Virus record (IMG/VR): IMGVR_UViG_3300042465_002456
Span: 1 to 21,901 of that record
Strand: one strand, 5' to 3'
DNA from: a virus
Length of the DNA stretch: 21,901 nt
Of this stretch, positions 7,888-17,505 are shown in pieces. A model generated the notes under the pieces. It made no database searches. It saw nothing but the letters and a program-made list of their open reading frames with translations, and was not told the origin of the DNA. Numbering within the stretch: the first letter of the stretch is position 1; each line of letters starts with the position of its first letter. The position numbers and the translations under genes are program-made.

Positions 7888-8772
7888 ATGAATGAAGCTG
7901 AAATCCTCCAGATTCTAAAAAATAATGGCGCACCTCCTACGCCAGAGAATATGCAGCGAGTACTACAACAGAGCGGCCGTGGCAGTGAAATGCTTGGCCG
8001 CTCTCTTGGTTTGCAAGGTGGTATGGATGAGTCCGGTCCTACTCCACTAATGCTAGATAAGCTAATGCAGGCTACTAGCACTCCGTCACAGATGCCTATT
8101 GCTCCTAATAGTGAGAGTAATGGCGCTCCGCAGAATGGCGCTGCTACTGCTGCTCCGGTACGTAATGCTCCTGCGGCTGCTCCTAATAGACAAGCTAATT
8201 ACGGTCCTGCTCCCGGTCCTGCTCCTAATCGTCAGATGAATTATGGTGGAGCTTCTGCACCTTCTGCTGCACCCGGCTCTGTTCCTTCTACTGGTGGCGG
8301 CAACAATCCTAACGTACTAGATGGTAGTGCTACTACTCAGATGGCTAATCAGCCACAAGGTGAGTATAAGTCTGCTATTAATTGGGACGATCTTAGTATT
8401 GGCAACGGTCTTGGATGGCTTGCTGCACTATTGGGTGTAAGTGCTGCTGCTAGGCCCGGTGCGCCACCGGCTGCTCCTATGAAAGCGTTGCCTGCTCCTA
8501 ACAAACAGATCGGTTACGAACCTAAGCTTACGGATCAGAGTGGACCTAAGATGGAATCTGGCGCTCCTGAGCTAGATGCTAAGGGAGTACAGCGTACTAA
8601 AGGAATGGCACAGACTCCTGAAGAGATTGCTGCTCTTAAAGCACAAGTCGATGCTGAGAATGCGGCACTTGAATCTGCAAAGCCTACTGAAGTTGGTAAG
8701 GCTGCGAAGCCTAAGAAAACTCCTGCACAGGAATTGATTGAAGCTGCTAAGAGGACAATGGGTCGTAGGTAA
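7888..8772 (+). CDS. Ala/Pro-rich protein with short repeats (294 aa)
   Basis: A short helical N-terminus (NEAEILQILKNNGAPPTPEN, then a second helix) leads into a long Ala/Pro/Asn/Gly-rich region, probably disordered (about residues 65-160). A short motif recurs: PNRQANYG (99-106), PNRQMNYG (113-120) and PNKQIGYE (204-211). A hydrophobic stretch (LGWLAALLGVSAAA, about 175-188) could be a membrane-touching helix. The C-terminal third is charged and helical (AALKAQVDAENAALESAKPT onward). I do not recognise the family; an internal virion protein, a scaffold-like factor or an ejected protein are possibilities. It overlaps the next gene by one base at TAATG (8772). Confidence 0.8.
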   Translation: MNEAEILQILKNNGAPPTPENMQRVLQQSGRGSEMLGRSLGLQGGMDESGPTPLMLDKLMQATSTPSQMPIAPNSESNGAPQNGAATAAPVRNAPAAAPNRQANYGPAPGPAPNRQMNYGGASAPSAAPGSVPSTGGGNNPNVLDGSATTQMANQPQGEYKSAINWDDLSIGNGLGWLAALLGVSAAARPGAPPAAPMKALPAPNKQIGYEPKLTDQSGPKMESGAPELDAKGVQRTKGMAQTPEEIAALKAQVDAENAALESAKPTEVGKAAKPKKTPAQELIEAAKRTMGRR

Positions 8773-10776: not shown

Positions 10777-12294
10777 ATGGCTGATTTTAGACTAATTAAA
10801 AATAGCGCTCAAGAGTCTTACTACCATTCACGCAATCAAATACAATTGATGGGTGGTGGATTTGGTAATGGTAAGACTGCGCTACTTTGTTCTAAAGTGC
10901 TGAAGATTGCTATTGAATATCCCACATCGCGTGGCGTGTTTGCGCGTAGTACTAAGCCTAAGTTAGAAGATACAGTAAAACCTGAATTCTTTAAGTGGTG
11001 TCCTGCTGACTGGATAGCTAAGATGCCTACGGAGAAGCATAACGATGTCATCCTTAAGAATGGCTCTTCGATACATTTCAGGCATGTTAGGCAAGAAGGC
11101 AAAGGCCGTGGGGAGAATGCCTCTAATCTGCTATCTGCTACTTATGATTACGCTGCTGTCGATCAAATTGATGATCCTGCGTTTACGCACAAAGATTTGC
11201 TCGATCTTATGGGTCGATTACGAGGCACTACAAAATACACGGGCAACGATATCACGATGCCGCTTGTCGGTCCTCAATGGTTGATGATTACATGCAACCC
11301 TACACGCAATTGGGTGTTTCGTGAGCTTGTTAACCCGCTGCATATTTTCCGAAAGACTGGCATCGTTACCAGCAAACTCATTTACGCTAAAGATCTTAAG
11401 AAGCCTCTTGTCGATTTGTTTGAAGCTTCGACTTATACGAATAAGCATAACACCGGAGAGAATTACATTAGATTGCTGGAATCTGCGTATAAGGGTTCTA
11501 TGGCATCACGATTCCTTGAAGGTAAGTGGGGAGCGTATGAAGGACTCGTCTATCCTGAATATGATGCAACAGTTAACCGTATCAATGCAAAAGAGTTAAA
11601 TGAGTATATCAGAGGCATCATCAACACAGGTAAGTTTGGGATCATTGAAGGCTATGACCACGGCATTGTTGTTCCTTCTTGTTACATGTTGGCTATTGTC
11701 GATGAATATGATAATACTTTCGTTGTGGATGGTTTTTATGAAGTTGGATTGAAAATTGCGGAAGCTTCTGATCGCATTAAAGAGATACGTACCAAGTGGA
11801 ATATTATTCCTTCTGACCCTATCTATGCTGATCCTGCTATTTTCCGTAAGACCAACACATCCAAAGATATTGTAGGTGAGACTGTTGCAGAGATGTACGC
11901 AAGCGAAGCAATCATCATGCAACGCGGTAACAATAACATCGAGGCAGGTGTAGCTAAGATCGCATCACATTTAGCGATGCAGAAGATGCACTATAATCCA
12001 GTGCTACAAGTATGGGGTGCGCCTCATTTGTTCTTCAGTACTGAGCTAGAGTTTCTTGATAACGAGATTGGTGACTACTACTGGAATCGCAATATCGCTG
12101 GTGATAATGTTGATAAGCCTAGAGACACTAACGATCATGCTATGGATACTCTTAAGTATATGTTCTCTCGTCGTCCTAGGATTGGTGTGCCTTTGGTGCG
12201 TACAGTTAAGCAGATCGATAAGAGGGTGTTGCAGAACTGGAACGAAATCGTAGAACAGACAGGTAACAGAGTGTTGCCTAGACATCTGAATTAG
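10777..12294 (+). CDS. terL: Terminase large subunit (505 aa)
   Basis: This is the ATP-driven DNA packaging motor and headful or end-cutting nuclease. The N-terminal ATPase has Walker A GGGFGNGKT (26-34), a Walker B-type AAVDQIDD (126-133), and a C-motif region ITCNPTRNW (171-179). The C-terminal RNase H-like nuclease has the acidic set expected: D294 in GYDHG, D352 in ADPAIF and the DHAMDTLKYM segment (453-462). Length is normal for the family. It assembles on the portal encoded just downstream, with the small subunit probably at 8772-9371. The ribosome site is weak (GAG at about 11 nt), so translation may be coupled to 10540-10770. Confidence 0.97.
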   Translation: MADFRLIKNSAQESYYHSRNQIQLMGGGFGNGKTALLCSKVLKIAIEYPTSRGVFARSTKPKLEDTVKPEFFKWCPADWIAKMPTEKHNDVILKNGSSIHFRHVRQEGKGRGENASNLLSATYDYAAVDQIDDPAFTHKDLLDLMGRLRGTTKYTGNDITMPLVGPQWLMITCNPTRNWVFRELVNPLHIFRKTGIVTSKLIYAKDLKKPLVDLFEASTYTNKHNTGENYIRLLESAYKGSMASRFLEGKWGAYEGLVYPEYDATVNRINAKELNEYIRGIINTGKFGIIEGYDHGIVVPSCYMLAIVDEYDNTFVVDGFYEVGLKIAEASDRIKEIRTKWNIIPSDPIYADPAIFRKTNTSKDIVGETVAEMYASEAIIMQRGNNNIEAGVAKIASHLAMQKMHYNPVLQVWGAPHLFFSTELEFLDNEIGDYYWNRNIAGDNVDKPRDTNDHAMDTLKYMFSRRPRIGVPLVRTVKQIDKRVLQNWNEIVEQTGNRVLPRHLN

Positions 12295-12301
12295 GTAATG
12301 T

Positions 12302-13066
12302 ATGTCCGATATCGTAAACAATATTATAGATGCTCTGTTTGGTAAGACTGAGAAACCTGTAAAGTATACTACTCCTCGCACGCCTACTCCGTCTGATGAA
12401 GATGTTGCAGCTAGCAGAGATTACAAAAACAGGTACGGTAATCCTAACGAAGTTACTGTCGATGGCACAAGAGAAATAAATAGCGGTGATGAAAATATTA
12501 AATATACGCAGCAAGGCACCAAAGTAGATACTGCACCTAAAAAAGATGTTTCATATTTACATAGTACTAAACAACTTTATGATACTAATCCTAAGCCCGC
12601 TTCAGTAGATACAGCTGATACGATATACAAAGCACAGATGATGTCTAATACTAGTCCTCTATCAGCATTGGGATTTGATGTGAACAAAGGAGTATTTTCA
12701 CCTAAAGATCCTAATGTATCTCTGTCTCATGGTGGTATATATAATCGAACCAGAGATAAGTTTTGGGCAGATACGGAAGATCCTAATTCTATAGTACATG
12801 AAAGTACGCATAGAGGAATGCAGTTGCTGCGAGATAAAGGTCATAAGATACCAGACTCAGCAGAAGAGAATTTAGTTAGAGCAGTATTGTTGAATAGATT
12901 TGGTGATATCGAAAGTGGTGCAGGTTCAGAGTCAGCACGACAAGTAAATGTTGCTAGACAGAAAATGAGCCAGAAAGAATTCTTCGACTTGCTTACTAAA
13001 CTAGACGATGCTGCCAATAAAGAACTAGGACAACGTACTTGGGATCGCCACGGCGGCGTAAATTAG
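12302..13066 (+). CDS. Predicted HExxH metallopeptidase between large terminase and portal (254 aa)
   Basis: The N-terminal 100 residues are polar and probably unstructured. The core then has a strand (GGIYNRTRDKFWAD) and a helix carrying HESTH at 166-170, the zinc-binding and catalytic motif of zincin metallopeptidases, in the hydrophobic-flanked setting of a true active-site helix (SIVHESTHRGMQLL). A second helix 18-19 residues later has Glu188 and Glu189 (SAEENLVRAVLLNRF), suited to be the third ligand in a gluzincin. The C-terminus is helical. The location among head genes suggests a capsid-maturation, portal-processing or virion-carried peptidase. The family is not recognised, and proteolysis is inferred from the motif and its setting. 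ATG 12302 lacks a strong ribosome site. Confidence 0.75.
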   Translation: MSDIVNNIIDALFGKTEKPVKYTTPRTPTPSDEDVAASRDYKNRYGNPNEVTVDGTREINSGDENIKYTQQGTKVDTAPKKDVSYLHSTKQLYDTNPKPASVDTADTIYKAQMMSNTSPLSALGFDVNKGVFSPKDPNVSLSHGGIYNRTRDKFWADTEDPNSIVHESTHRGMQLLRDKGHKIPDSAEENLVRAVLLNRFGDIESGAGSESARQVNVARQKMSQKEFFDLLTKLDDAANKELGQRTWDRHGGVN

Positions 13067-13077
13067 GATGAATAATC

Positions 13078-15333
13078 ATGGCTGATGATCCGATTAGTGC
13101 GAATGTAGATAAGATGGTTTCTGATCTAGGCAATCTGCCGAGTGAGGAAGCTAAGAAGAAAGCTGCACCTCCTATCTACAAGATGATGGCAGATTCAAAG
13201 ATTCCTGTATCTTCTAAGGAAGCAGGACTTTGGAAGTCTCGTCGTGATATCGGTATTCAGTCTATCTCCAATACTGCTAAGGCATGGAAAGAAGCTGAGT
13301 CTTATTACTCTCTTGGACAGGATACGCATCGTCAAGAAGGTGGTGGTGAAATCAAGGGTAATTCTCGATACGCACGTAACGTGAATCGTCGCTATAATAG
13401 TACTGAGAACATTGTATATTCTAATGTCAATGCAATGGTTCCTGCTATTCTTGCAAAGAATCCGCAGGCTGAGATTACTGCATTCCTCAAGCAGCTAAGT
13501 CCGCAGGCTACTATCTATGAGCATCTAGTCAATCGTCTCGCTGCGATGAAGCACGCTCCCGGATTCAATCTCAAGCCTAAGTTGCGTAAGTCTATTGTAC
13601 GTTGTGAGATTTCCAACGAAGCTTGGGTAATGACTGGTTACACTAAGAAAGATGAATCAGCAGACGGCGCACGTGAAGCACTTGTTGCTCTTGGTGCTGC
13701 ATTGCCGAAGGCTAAGAGTCAGAAAGAAATTGAAGAGATTGAAGGTAAGTTGCAGGCTCTTGAAGAGACTGTAGACGTACTCAATCCTGCTGGTCCGTTT
13801 GTTCGTACGTTCAATGGTGATAAAGTACTAGTCGATCCTACGTCATGTGAAGATGATTTCAGTGATGCTAATTGGATGATGGTACAGGTCATGCTTCCTA
13901 CTCGTTATCTGCTTGCGAAGTATGCAAATGAGAAGGACGGTACAGGACAGTATACTGCTATCTACAATGAACAGTACATCATCAATCCGGGTGACAGCAG
14001 TGGTGATCCTCAGGATGAATTGACGAATTTCAAGCTCATTAAAGAAGCAGAGTCTTTCAAGGATGCTGGCTTCTCTGATGATGCATCTTATCAAAAGGCA
14101 CGTATGACTAAGTGCTGGTATTGCTTTGATAAGGTCAAGAGGCGATTCCTGCTCGTTACTGATGAGAAGTGGGAATGGCCGCTGTGGGTCTATGATGATC
14201 CGTATCAGCTTCCTAGCTTCTTTCCCTTGAAGCGTTTGCAGTATCACACTGATCCCAATCGTAATCGTACGAAGGGTGAGGTATCATTCTATCTCGATCA
14301 ACAGGATGAATTGAACGACATCAATTCTGAGTTGAATCGTATGCGTACGCAGATTTTGAACAAAGTACTGTACGATGGACGATACATTGATAAGGATCAG
14401 TTTGATTCGTACATGAAGGGTGGGGATCAGCTAGGCTTTGCTGTTGGCAAGAACATGCCAGAGGGAATGAAGATCAGTGATGTCATTATGGCTCCCCCTC
14501 TTCCGAATCTTCAGTATAAAGAACTGTTCGACAAGACTCCTATCTATGCAGTCGTAGATCGTATCTCTTCATCGAATGATATTCTTCGTGGCGCACAGTT
14601 TAAGACTAACACCACGAATACTGCTATCGATACGTACAACTCTATTCAGAATCAGCGTATCGATGAAAAGATTGATGCTGTAGAAGATTTCTCAGGTGAT
14701 ATCTTCTATGACATTATGTTTCTCTGTGCACAGTTCATGACTCAAGAAGAAGTTAAGTATATTCTTGGAGACGAAGCTGCACAGTGGCAACAGATGGAAG
14801 CTACAGTACTGCGGCAGCAGTTTAATTGTACTGTACTTGGTGGTAGCACTCAGAAGCCTACGAGTGCGTCTAAGAAAGATCAGGCTCTTAAGATTGGCCA
14901 GATTCTTGGACAGTATGCTAATGCTTCTCCGTACGTTGTTATCATTATGCTCAAGGCTATGGAGCAGGCATTTGATGACATCGTAGTCACTGGTGAAGAT
15001 TGGGCTATGATTCGTCAGTCTATCGAAGCCAAGATGATGCAAGGCGCTCCTGCACCAGGACAAGAAGGCGCACCGCAGGCAGGTGATGGTCCGTCACAGC
15101 CTGCGCCAGAAGGTGAAGTACCGCCAGAAGAACAAGCTGCGGAAGCTGATCCTAACGCACCACGCCCTCCCGCCAGCGCACAGGAACACGTACAGCTACA
15201 AATGGCTATTAAGAAGCTACCTCCACAAGCACAACAGGCTATCGCAGCAGCCGTTAAGAAAGGAGTACCAGAGGAACAAGCGTTTACGGAAGTAGCTAAG
15301 GCTATGTCAGCACAACCACAACCCATGCAGTAA
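13078..15333 (+). CDS. Portal protein (751 aa)
   Basis: The portal is the twelve-subunit ring through which DNA enters and leaves the capsid. Length matches the large P22-like portals of podoviruses. Typical parts are the N-terminal NRRYNSTENIVYSNVNAMVP segment with the 'N-I-x-Y-S-N-V' strand, the acidic central region, LDQQDELNDINSELNRMRTQ (the helical core near 420), and the DRISSSNDILRGAQ helix near 500. The C-terminus is a Pro/Gln/Ala-rich region followed by a helical tail (VQLQMAIKKLPPQAQQAIAA), likely the barrel or its exit. AGGATGA precedes ATG 13078. Adjacent to the terminase and scaffold genes, as usual. Firm on context and pattern. Confidence 0.88.
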   Translation: MADDPISANVDKMVSDLGNLPSEEAKKKAAPPIYKMMADSKIPVSSKEAGLWKSRRDIGIQSISNTAKAWKEAESYYSLGQDTHRQEGGGEIKGNSRYARNVNRRYNSTENIVYSNVNAMVPAILAKNPQAEITAFLKQLSPQATIYEHLVNRLAAMKHAPGFNLKPKLRKSIVRCEISNEAWVMTGYTKKDESADGAREALVALGAALPKAKSQKEIEEIEGKLQALEETVDVLNPAGPFVRTFNGDKVLVDPTSCEDDFSDANWMMVQVMLPTRYLLAKYANEKDGTGQYTAIYNEQYIINPGDSSGDPQDELTNFKLIKEAESFKDAGFSDDASYQKARMTKCWYCFDKVKRRFLLVTDEKWEWPLWVYDDPYQLPSFFPLKRLQYHTDPNRNRTKGEVSFYLDQQDELNDINSELNRMRTQILNKVLYDGRYIDKDQFDSYMKGGDQLGFAVGKNMPEGMKISDVIMAPPLPNLQYKELFDKTPIYAVVDRISSSNDILRGAQFKTNTTNTAIDTYNSIQNQRIDEKIDAVEDFSGDIFYDIMFLCAQFMTQEEVKYILGDEAAQWQQMEATVLRQQFNCTVLGGSTQKPTSASKKDQALKIGQILGQYANASPYVVIIMLKAMEQAFDDIVVTGEDWAMIRQSIEAKMMQGAPAPGQEGAPQAGDGPSQPAPEGEVPPEEQAAEADPNAPRPPASAQEHVQLQMAIKKLPPQAQQAIAAAVKKGVPEEQAFTEVAKAMSAQPQPMQ

Positions 15334-15354: not shown

Positions 15355-16494
15355 ATGGCCGACCCGAATGATATTGAGAATGGCGTTACAGACGTTGCAG
15401 ATCAGAATGCAGAAGTAGATACTGGTATTAATACAGAGGCAGATGTTACGTCTGGTTCTGATCTTGATGCTAAGCTAGATGCACTTGCAGGTATTTCTAA
15501 TGCTAAAGCCCCTAAGACCAATGGTGCGGCTCCGGTACAAGGACAGCCAATCGCTGATACCCAAGCCAGAAAGTCGGGAGAAGAAAGACAAGTTGCAGCA
15601 GAAGATCGCCAGCAAGGAAATCGCCAGAGCGTCAATCCTGCTCACACTCCGCGAGCGTACGGCAAAGCGTTCAAGTGGGATACGCAAGGGAATGTAGTGC
15701 TTGCTAATACCGGCGAGATCATTGCTCCCATTGGTGCGGCTCGTAAGTCCTTTGAGCGTATGCTGCCTATTATCAGTGCTGCACAGTCTGAAGCAGACAA
15801 GTACAGAGGCATGTACGAATCTGCCGCAGAGTCTAATGCTATTGCTTCTAAGCTTAATCTTGCGCCAGAAGAGTACGCTATCGGTGCTCGCATCATGGCG
15901 ACGTTTAAGGCAGACCCAAAGAAAGCTATTGCTTTTCTGCTGTCAGAGGCGCAAAATAATGGCGTAGACGTGTCGGACCTTGGCGTAGGTGGCGGTGGCG
16001 GATTGTCCGTAGCTACCATTGAGAAGGTTTTAGAAGATAAGATTAAAGCTGCATTGGAGCCGTTTAGCTTCATTACGCAGGATCGTGAAAGTCAGCAACA
16101 GGAGCGTGAAGCTACAGCACAAGCTACTGATGTAGTTAATGACTTCCTAGACTCTACTCCAGATGCAGAACCGCATATGGATTCTATCGCTAAGATTATG
16201 AATGCGCGACCGGGACAGGTATCTATCTCAGAAGCGTATTGGATTCTAAATGCACATGCTCATAAGAATGGGCTTGATTGGTCTAAGCCACTAGGACCGC
16301 AGATCGCGGCTAAACTAGGAAACACTCCTAACAACGGACAACCTGCTAATAACGGGCGCAGACTGCCAGATTTGAATGGCAGACAAAACAACGGTACTAT
16401 TGTCGAACGTAGACAGACAGTAATGGCCGGTGATGCTTCTTCAACAGACATCGTAAAAGAAGCAATGCGTGAAGCAGGTATGGTCATTGAATAG
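15355..16494 (+). CDS. Capsid scaffolding protein (379 aa)
   Basis: The N-terminus is acidic and low in hydrophobics (VADQNAEVDTGINTEADVTS), then an Ala/Gln-rich disordered stretch, a helical middle (KSFERMLPIISAAQSEADKY) with a Gly-rich hinge (GVGGGGGLSVATIEKVLEDK), a further helical part (ERRQTVMAGDASSTDIVKEA) and a basic-acidic tail. Acidic, helical and coiled proteins of about 300-400 residues directly upstream of the capsid gene are scaffolds, which guide shell assembly and then leave. The tail-end helix is where scaffolds usually touch the capsid. AGGAGA lies about 8 nt before ATG 15355. No protease motif is visible in it. Confidence 0.8.
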   Translation: MADPNDIENGVTDVADQNAEVDTGINTEADVTSGSDLDAKLDALAGISNAKAPKTNGAAPVQGQPIADTQARKSGEERQVAAEDRQQGNRQSVNPAHTPRAYGKAFKWDTQGNVVLANTGEIIAPIGAARKSFERMLPIISAAQSEADKYRGMYESAAESNAIASKLNLAPEEYAIGARIMATFKADPKKAIAFLLSEAQNNGVDVSDLGVGGGGGLSVATIEKVLEDKIKAALEPFSFITQDRESQQQEREATAQATDVVNDFLDSTPDAEPHMDSIAKIMNARPGQVSISEAYWILNAHAHKNGLDWSKPLGPQIAAKLGNTPNNGQPANNGRRLPDLNGRQNNGTIVERRQTVMAGDASSTDIVKEAMREAGMVIE

Positions 16495-16530: not shown

Positions 16531-17505
16531 ATGCTTAGTACTTATGCAACTGGTACACTGGATACTGTCATTAATGCGATGCTTGATAAGAGCCGTAAGA
16601 AGCTCATTATGGCGTCGATGAAGTCGAATGCGTTCATGGCTTGGGCTATGGCGAATGATCGCATTGAAACTGAGACTGGTGCTAACATCACCAATCCTCT
16701 CGTTGTCGGACGTAATCCGAACGTCACTTCTTATCAGTACTTCGATCCGCTGCCTGTCGTTCAGACGAATGAGTTCACGACTGTTCGTTACGGTTGGACT
16801 CGTGTTGCTGGTACGGTAATCATCTCTTCGCAGGAAGAGGATGAGAATCAGGGCGAGGGAGTTATCTTTAAGATTCTCAAGGGCAAGCTTGATGTCCTTG
16901 AAATGTCTATTAAAGAGAAGTTTTCTGCGTATCTGTACGGCGCTGGTGCTGGTACTGATCCGAATGGTCTTGCTGCTACGATTCCTGATGATCCGACTAC
17001 TGGCACGCTTGGCGGTATCTCGCGCGTTACGGAATCGCAGTGGCGTACGTCTGCTTATCAGTTTGCTGGTGCTATCGATGCCACCAACATTGAAGAAGCA
17101 TTCGATGATATCCTGATGGACCTTACGCTGAATGGTGAGAAGCCCTCGCTTATTCTGTGTGGTCGTAACATCATGCGTATCTATCGCGCTGCTGTCCGTG
17201 ACAAGTTCACCATTCCGATCACTGGCAAGGCTGGTGATGCGATGATGGACCTTGGCTTCGGCAACGTCACGCATAATAAGATTCCTATGTTCTATGATGA
17301 GGATTGCGGTGTTAACCGTGCGTACTTTATCAATGACAAGTATCTGCGTATGCACATTCTTAAGGGTGTGAATATGGTTACGAAGAAGCTTGCTGCTCCG
17401 TGGACTATCGACGGTTCTGGCTCGCGCGTTGTCTGGCAGGGACAGTACTGCTTGTGGGCTGCGTATCGTAAGCACGCTGTCCTGCGTAACGGAACGACGG
17501 GGTAA
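16531..17505 (+). CDS. Major capsid protein, HK97-fold type (324 aa)
   Basis: The shell subunit. Family-like features are the central GGISRVTESQWRTSAYQF stretch (a conserved 'G-G-I-x-R-x-T-x-x-x-W-R' motif), preceded by an E-loop-type acidic region (SSQEEDENQGEGVIFK) and followed by the P-domain-type helix with GRNIMRIYRAAV and the strand TKKLAAPWTIDG. Length (324) is at the short end of HK97-fold capsids. GGAG lies about 8 nt before ATG 16531, a good site matched to a strongly expressed gene, and the codons are more C-ending than in neighbouring genes. It is next to the scaffold, as expected. Confidence 0.92.
   Translation: MLSTYATGTLDTVINAMLDKSRKKLIMASMKSNAFMAWAMANDRIETETGANITNPLVVGRNPNVTSYQYFDPLPVVQTNEFTTVRYGWTRVAGTVIISSQEEDENQGEGVIFKILKGKLDVLEMSIKEKFSAYLYGAGAGTDPNGLAATIPDDPTTGTLGGISRVTESQWRTSAYQFAGAIDATNIEEAFDDILMDLTLNGEKPSLILCGRNIMRIYRAAVRDKFTIPITGKAGDAMMDLGFGNVTHNKIPMFYDEDCGVNRAYFINDKYLRMHILKGVNMVTKKLAAPWTIDGSGSRVVWQGQYCLWAAYRKHAVLRNGTTG

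Follow-up and report, generated by a model that had tools for sequence, protein, structure and literature searches.

Zinc metallopeptidase (MPTase) domains are known from phage polyvalent proteins, in which the zincin core consists, in this order, of a helix, three strands, a helix with HExxH and a helix with a glutamate (Iyer et al. 2017, PMC5512222). Delivery to the host has been proposed for these domains, and those of P1 DdrB and N4 virion RNA polymerase have been proposed to process other ejected proteins or themselves (PMC5512222). Known phage zinc-peptidase domains of this type mostly lie inside large multidomain proteins, and their role is hard to isolate. The head-maturation proteases HK97 gp4 and T4 gp21 are serine peptidases and usually essential. 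Here we describe an accessory, stand-alone, predicted gluzincin-like peptidase; in the reading that we tentatively favour, it probably travels in the virion and, once delivered, cleaves a host protein.

The window (the whole 21,901-nucleotide stretch of DNA analysed) comes from an uncultured tailed phage, and ORF analysis identified in it a gene with an ATG at 12302 that encodes a protein of 254 amino acids (Table 1). A preliminary description had placed a predicted zinc metallopeptidase here, between the large terminase (TerL) and portal genes, with HESTH at residues 166-170 and two glutamates at 188-189; the reading frame, its coordinates, both motifs and both flanking genes are as it gave them. 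The gene starts 8 bases 3' of the TerL stop codon, and its neighbours run in the same direction. The putative scaffolding protein had no Pfam or confident PHROG match. Elsewhere in the window, the minus strand encodes a DUF932 protein (1181-2164; PF06067, E 4.6e-40), a small predicted lipoprotein whose lipobox, LVSAC, was recognized by eye (2166-2393), and a protein that by eye looks like an HNH endonuclease (156-593; CxxC...HH...CxxCH) and has no Pfam match.

Table 1. Features of the peptidase gene and its neighbours; positions are those of the window.
Feature	Position	Strand	Evidence
Gene for the predicted zincin metallopeptidase, stand-alone, 254 aa	12302..13066	+	ORF; family alignment; AlphaFold2 model
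Amphipathic helix at the N-terminus (residues 2-12), which may be a docking tag	12305..12337	+	Low-confidence model helix; hydrophobic moment
Semi-conserved module near the N-terminus (residues 30-60), which may be a propeptide or a dock	12389..12481	+	Alignments
Start of zincin core, residues 102-157	12605..12772	+	Family alignment and model
HESTH, residues 166-170, predicted zinc-binding and catalytic motif	12797..12811	+	Sequence, alignment
E189...R193 in helix 185-200: Glu predicted as third zinc ligand, Arg invariant	12866..12880	+	Alignment, model
C-terminal 20 residues of the peptidase, DDAANKELGQRTWDRHGGVN	13004..13063	+	Alignments; identical in the 3 closest members
AATTAGG, left copy: TerL stop and Shine-Dalgarno-like AGG; repeat bounding the cassette	12289..12295	+	
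AATTAGG, right copy: peptidase gene stop and Shine-Dalgarno-like AGG before portal	13061..13067	+	
Terminase large subunit (TerL)	10777..12294	+	PHROG_2, 7.8e-22; Pfam Terminase_6N PF03237, 9.9e-9
P22-like portal protein	13078..15333	+	PHROG_156 portal, 1.1e-9; P22_portal PF16510 weak, 6.5e-4
Putative scaffolding protein	15355..16494	+	Position between portal and MCP only
Major capsid protein (MCP), Mx8/Mx9-like	16531..17505	+	PHROG_9953, 1e-43; 26% identity to Mx9

HExxH was present in only 0.6% of shuffled versions of the peptidase, but as the window has some 25 genes the motif by itself would prove little, and it is conservation that decides. We found 10 relatives in uncultured-virus contigs, with 24-81% identity, which gives a family of 11 members. 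Two are near relatives (60 and 81% identity), one of which has the motif as HENTH; the 8 further distinct members (24-29% identical) were obtained with the DNA pattern HExTHRGxxxLxxxG in IMG/VR and then with an alignment-driven scan. In the family alignment, H166, E167, H170, R171, G172, L176, E189, R193 and G201 were invariant in all 11 members, and upstream P119, G124, G145 and Y147 were invariant as well. The conservation of H166, E167, H170 and E189 on which the preliminary description had made its prediction depend was thus observed, and no homologue without the HExxH residues appeared among those examined; for HExxH this result is circular in part, since an HExTHRG-type pattern had served to retrieve most of the relatives. 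The invariance of E189 and R193 is not circular, because neither residue stood in any search pattern. Furthermore, one member (L115) has HESIH, which could not match the pattern HE[SN]TH, and was retrieved via another motif. Position 188 varies between E, D, Q and H among the 11 members whereas E189 is invariant, which makes Glu189 the ligand candidate; only the second of the two glutamates first put forward is thus retained. Depending on the member, this Glu lies 19 to 38 residues after the second His, as for two helices joined by a loop. The members are short proteins (about 250-350 amino acids) with no second Pfam domain, and their signature, SP-I/V-x2-LGF...GxY...VHESTHRG...ExxxR, lets annotators name genes that are currently left hypothetical.

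With the 11-sequence alignment, AlphaFold2 produced a model with a pLDDT of 73.9 and a pTM of 0.76, in which pLDDT reached 83-94 over most of residues 101-240. The order of elements in the model (helix 102-115, strands 130-133, 145-148 and 153-157, helix 161-178 with HExxH, and helix 185-200 with E189) predicts a minimal zincin layout of a helix, three strands, an HExxH helix and a Glu helix. Together with the invariant HExxH and the one invariant downstream Glu, this layout upholds the original prediction of a zinc metallopeptidase. In Foldseek searches against the PDB the best matches were mostly zincins, none of them significant (best E 0.28, 3dti), and the best eleven include IrrE, selecase, ADAM8, PprI and leukotriene A4 hydrolase. 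Among viral models the best match was UniProt A0A6J5RJM8 from an uncultured Caudovirales phage, a member of the same family with 254 amino acids, 79% identity and no functional annotation, followed by an IrrE-like protein of phage PBS1 (E 7e-3, probability 0.93). That the protein is not a zincin, and HESTH a coincidence, would be in line with the silence of the sequence libraries and with an AlphaFold2 model made from three sequences, which had a pLDDT of 45 and gave no zincin match in a fold search; the eleven-sequence model and the invariant downstream Glu make this very improbable. A zincin-like fold without peptidase function, acting as a structural plug or binding protein, is improbable too: R171 and G172, invariant and unusual after such a motif, are compatible with it, as is an activity that is so far a prediction, but down to 24% identity neither the three predicted metal ligands nor the predicted catalytic Glu varies.

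Searches of Pfam, NCBIfam, PHROGs and PDB sequences with family members gave chance-level matches only, and scans of genome contigs found no relative. With six members and one fragment as tblastn queries, nothing significant turned up among 50,697 phage records; at the sensitivity of tblastn, the family is absent from cultured phages. Even when E values as high as 1 were admitted, the Pfam profiles of polyvalent-protein peptidases matched none of the 11 members. A match to phrog_1365 (E 0.02) spans 34 residues in one member only and was not used. The peptidase would work like the polyvalent-protein metallopeptidases, but because its family matches these in neither sequence nor architecture, we class it as a new family of predicted zincins.

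We also compared the locus with its closest relatives. In L003/G002, which encodes an MCP 93%, a portal 80%, a TerL 80% and a scaffold 57% identical to those of the window, TerL is nevertheless followed directly by portal, and a search of the entire 37.5-kb record found no peptidase homologue; although the records may lack some sequence, the TerL-portal interval is intact. The gene is also absent from G004 and G006 (68-69% MCP identity). Thus, the peptidase gene is accessory. The empty-site junction of L003, AATTAGGAAGAATAAGATGG, matches the right-hand junction of the window, AATTAGGATGAATAATCATGG, and the gene therefore behaves as a cassette bounded by AATTAGG. Compared with L002, the peptidase is 60% identical, whereas TerL is 98% and portal 97% identical, and dN/dS is 0.38 for the peptidase gene against 0.04-0.06 for TerL and portal. 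In comparisons with two relatives its dN/dS is about 0.20 and 0.38, which shows purifying selection on the reading frame. Synonymous divergence from L002 is also doubled, which suggests allele exchange, and GC3 is 0.26 in the peptidase gene and 0.40-0.41 in its two neighbours. The last 20 codons (13004-13063) are 95-97% identical in DNA to those of relatives, and the middle of the gene falls to 56% against L002; this contrast along the sequence suggests a recombination boundary near the portal start.

These comparisons bear on the proposal, made in the preliminary description, that the enzyme processes scaffold, portal or capsid. A zinc peptidase for head maturation would be at home inside the head cassette, and the TerL and portal flanks are kept in L002, L004 and L111/L112. 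However, an optional gene is a misfit for this role, given that relatives with 93% (L003) and 68-69% (G004 and G006) MCP identity do without it. Moreover, the capsid proteins of the clade start at a near-equal position, without a long extra N-terminal region, and the gene lies 5' of portal, not between portal and capsid. With the family adjoining neck or lysis genes elsewhere, head maturation is disfavoured, and we regard it as quite improbable. The other option of that description, a virion-carried enzyme acting on the host, would fit better.

TerL and portal remain the neighbours of the peptidase gene in L002 and L004, and in L111/L112, whose TerL is 46% and whose portal is 39-41% identical, TerL is followed first by the peptidase gene, then by small genes and then by portal. 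In L116 the gene lies between a TerL-like ORF recognized by eye and a Head-tail_con portal, in L115 it is 3' of a portal-looking gene, and in L114, L110 and L107 it lies between adaptor-like and stabilisation-like genes, so called from position and appearance without a profile. In L109 the peptidase gene follows an Amidase_3 gene and precedes a TerL-like ORF. A TerL-like ORF also comes next in L108/L117, where the genes before the peptidase gene encode a phage lysozyme and a small membrane-like protein. Thus, in most members, across several phage types, the neighbours are TerL, portal or adaptor/stabilisation (neck) genes. Short, very hydrophobic ORFs, perhaps encoding small membrane proteins, occur in the TerL-portal interval of L112 (about 8483-8680) and L019 (about 2385-2550).

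The contexts in L109 and L108 make a lysis-stage envelope peptidase, which would not be packaged and would attack envelope proteins of the host late in infection, as it ends, the main alternative. In L109 and L108/L117 the gene has TerL on one side and an endolysin or amidase gene on the other, a position that also fits such a role, and the hydrophobic ORFs of L112 and L019 could be read in the same way. However, the peptidase has no evident signal peptide or membrane segment, and even its lysis-proximal members stay at or near TerL while most others neighbour TerL, portal and neck genes; we consider a lysis factor unlikely.

The N-terminus, described at first as a polar stretch that could be a tether or a propeptide, is not simply polar: residues 2-12 form a predicted amphipathic helix, with a hydrophobic moment of 0.4-0.8 in most relatives, and residues 30-60 form a semi-conserved module with the lowest amino-acid divergence of the peptidase, the C-terminus excepted. 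The C-terminal tail ends near a GG motif common to most of the family. Small proteins encoded near portal or neck genes in L019 (2547-3166), L112 (8662-9042) and L113 (6266-6874) have N-termini that resemble one another and that of the peptidase, and by eye a MAGxxDxxIRxVL-like start is shared with small neighbour proteins of L019, L103 and L107. This start is possibly a shared virion-docking tag. The separate N-terminal module could be a propeptide, as expected if the peptidase processed itself or other ejected proteins inside the virion, and fold and context resemble those of the polyvalent-protein MPTases for which auto- or cis-processing was proposed (PMC5512222). We find this doubtful, however, since the peptidase stands alone with no fused cargo domain and its gene can be missing from near-identical head modules.

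We return to a packaged, host-directed peptidase, which is likelier than a head-maturation enzyme because the gene is optional and because unrelated phages of several kinds have it next to genes for virion assembly. A peptidase that is packaged and delivered with DNA would fit the late structural context, the optional status and rapid change of the gene, and its company of the polyvalent type; a late gene position is no proof of packaging. As an optional late gene of the head/packaging operon, it would be translated after TerL, and its product would become part of the particle; candidate docking parts are the amphipathic helix at the N-terminus and the conserved C-terminal tail. One zinc ion would be bound by the two histidines of HExxH (His166 and His170) together with Glu189 from the helix that follows, and Glu167 would activate the attacking water. 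The peptidase would then enter the cell with the DNA and cleave a host protein, which may belong to defence, envelope or regulation. Extended to the whole family, the proposal is of stand-alone zinc peptidases in several podovirus types, encoded by a swappable cassette, loaded into virions and cleaving a protein of the host as infection begins; we advance this wider version more tentatively still. A small, single-domain, optional version and a gene-minus sister with a 93% identical capsid make a clean test system, which could be used to ask about packaging, cleavage targets and help against host defences.

Among known systems, head-maturation proteases share with the peptidase a place in the head region, but its gene is optional, lies 5' of portal and encodes zinc-peptidase residues. 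LPD23-associated HExxH proteins (PF18838) of related podoviruses belong to the same broad phage group and also have HExxH and a later Glu (GEVEAR); in contrast, no family member matches LPD23, and kinship was not supported by profile-profile comparison, with an hhalign probability of only 1.6% against two such proteins. In L110 (7512-9487) two HExxH proteins are encoded in tandem, a family member and then an LPD23 protein (PF18838, E 3.4e-12) with HELQH...GEVEAR. HE[LI]QH proteins also occur in other podoviruses of the wider capsid clade, L030 (723-2024, with an LPD23 match, just upstream of a TerL-looking ORF) and L123 (1084-2397, minus strand). Peptidase M78 (IrrE/ImmA/PprI), likewise a minimal gluzincin, shows the best though weak fold similarity, yet no family member has a Pfam match to PF06114, and the gene lies in a late structural operon and not beside a repressor. 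The polyvalent-protein MPTase domains (PMC5512222) share the helix, three strands, HExxH helix and Glu helix, a vicinity to virion genes and the host delivery proposed for them, which we infer here as well; unlike them, the peptidase is a stand-alone protein of 254 amino acids, unfused to effector domains and without a Pfam match, and its family has a signature of its own, HExTHRG...ExxxR.
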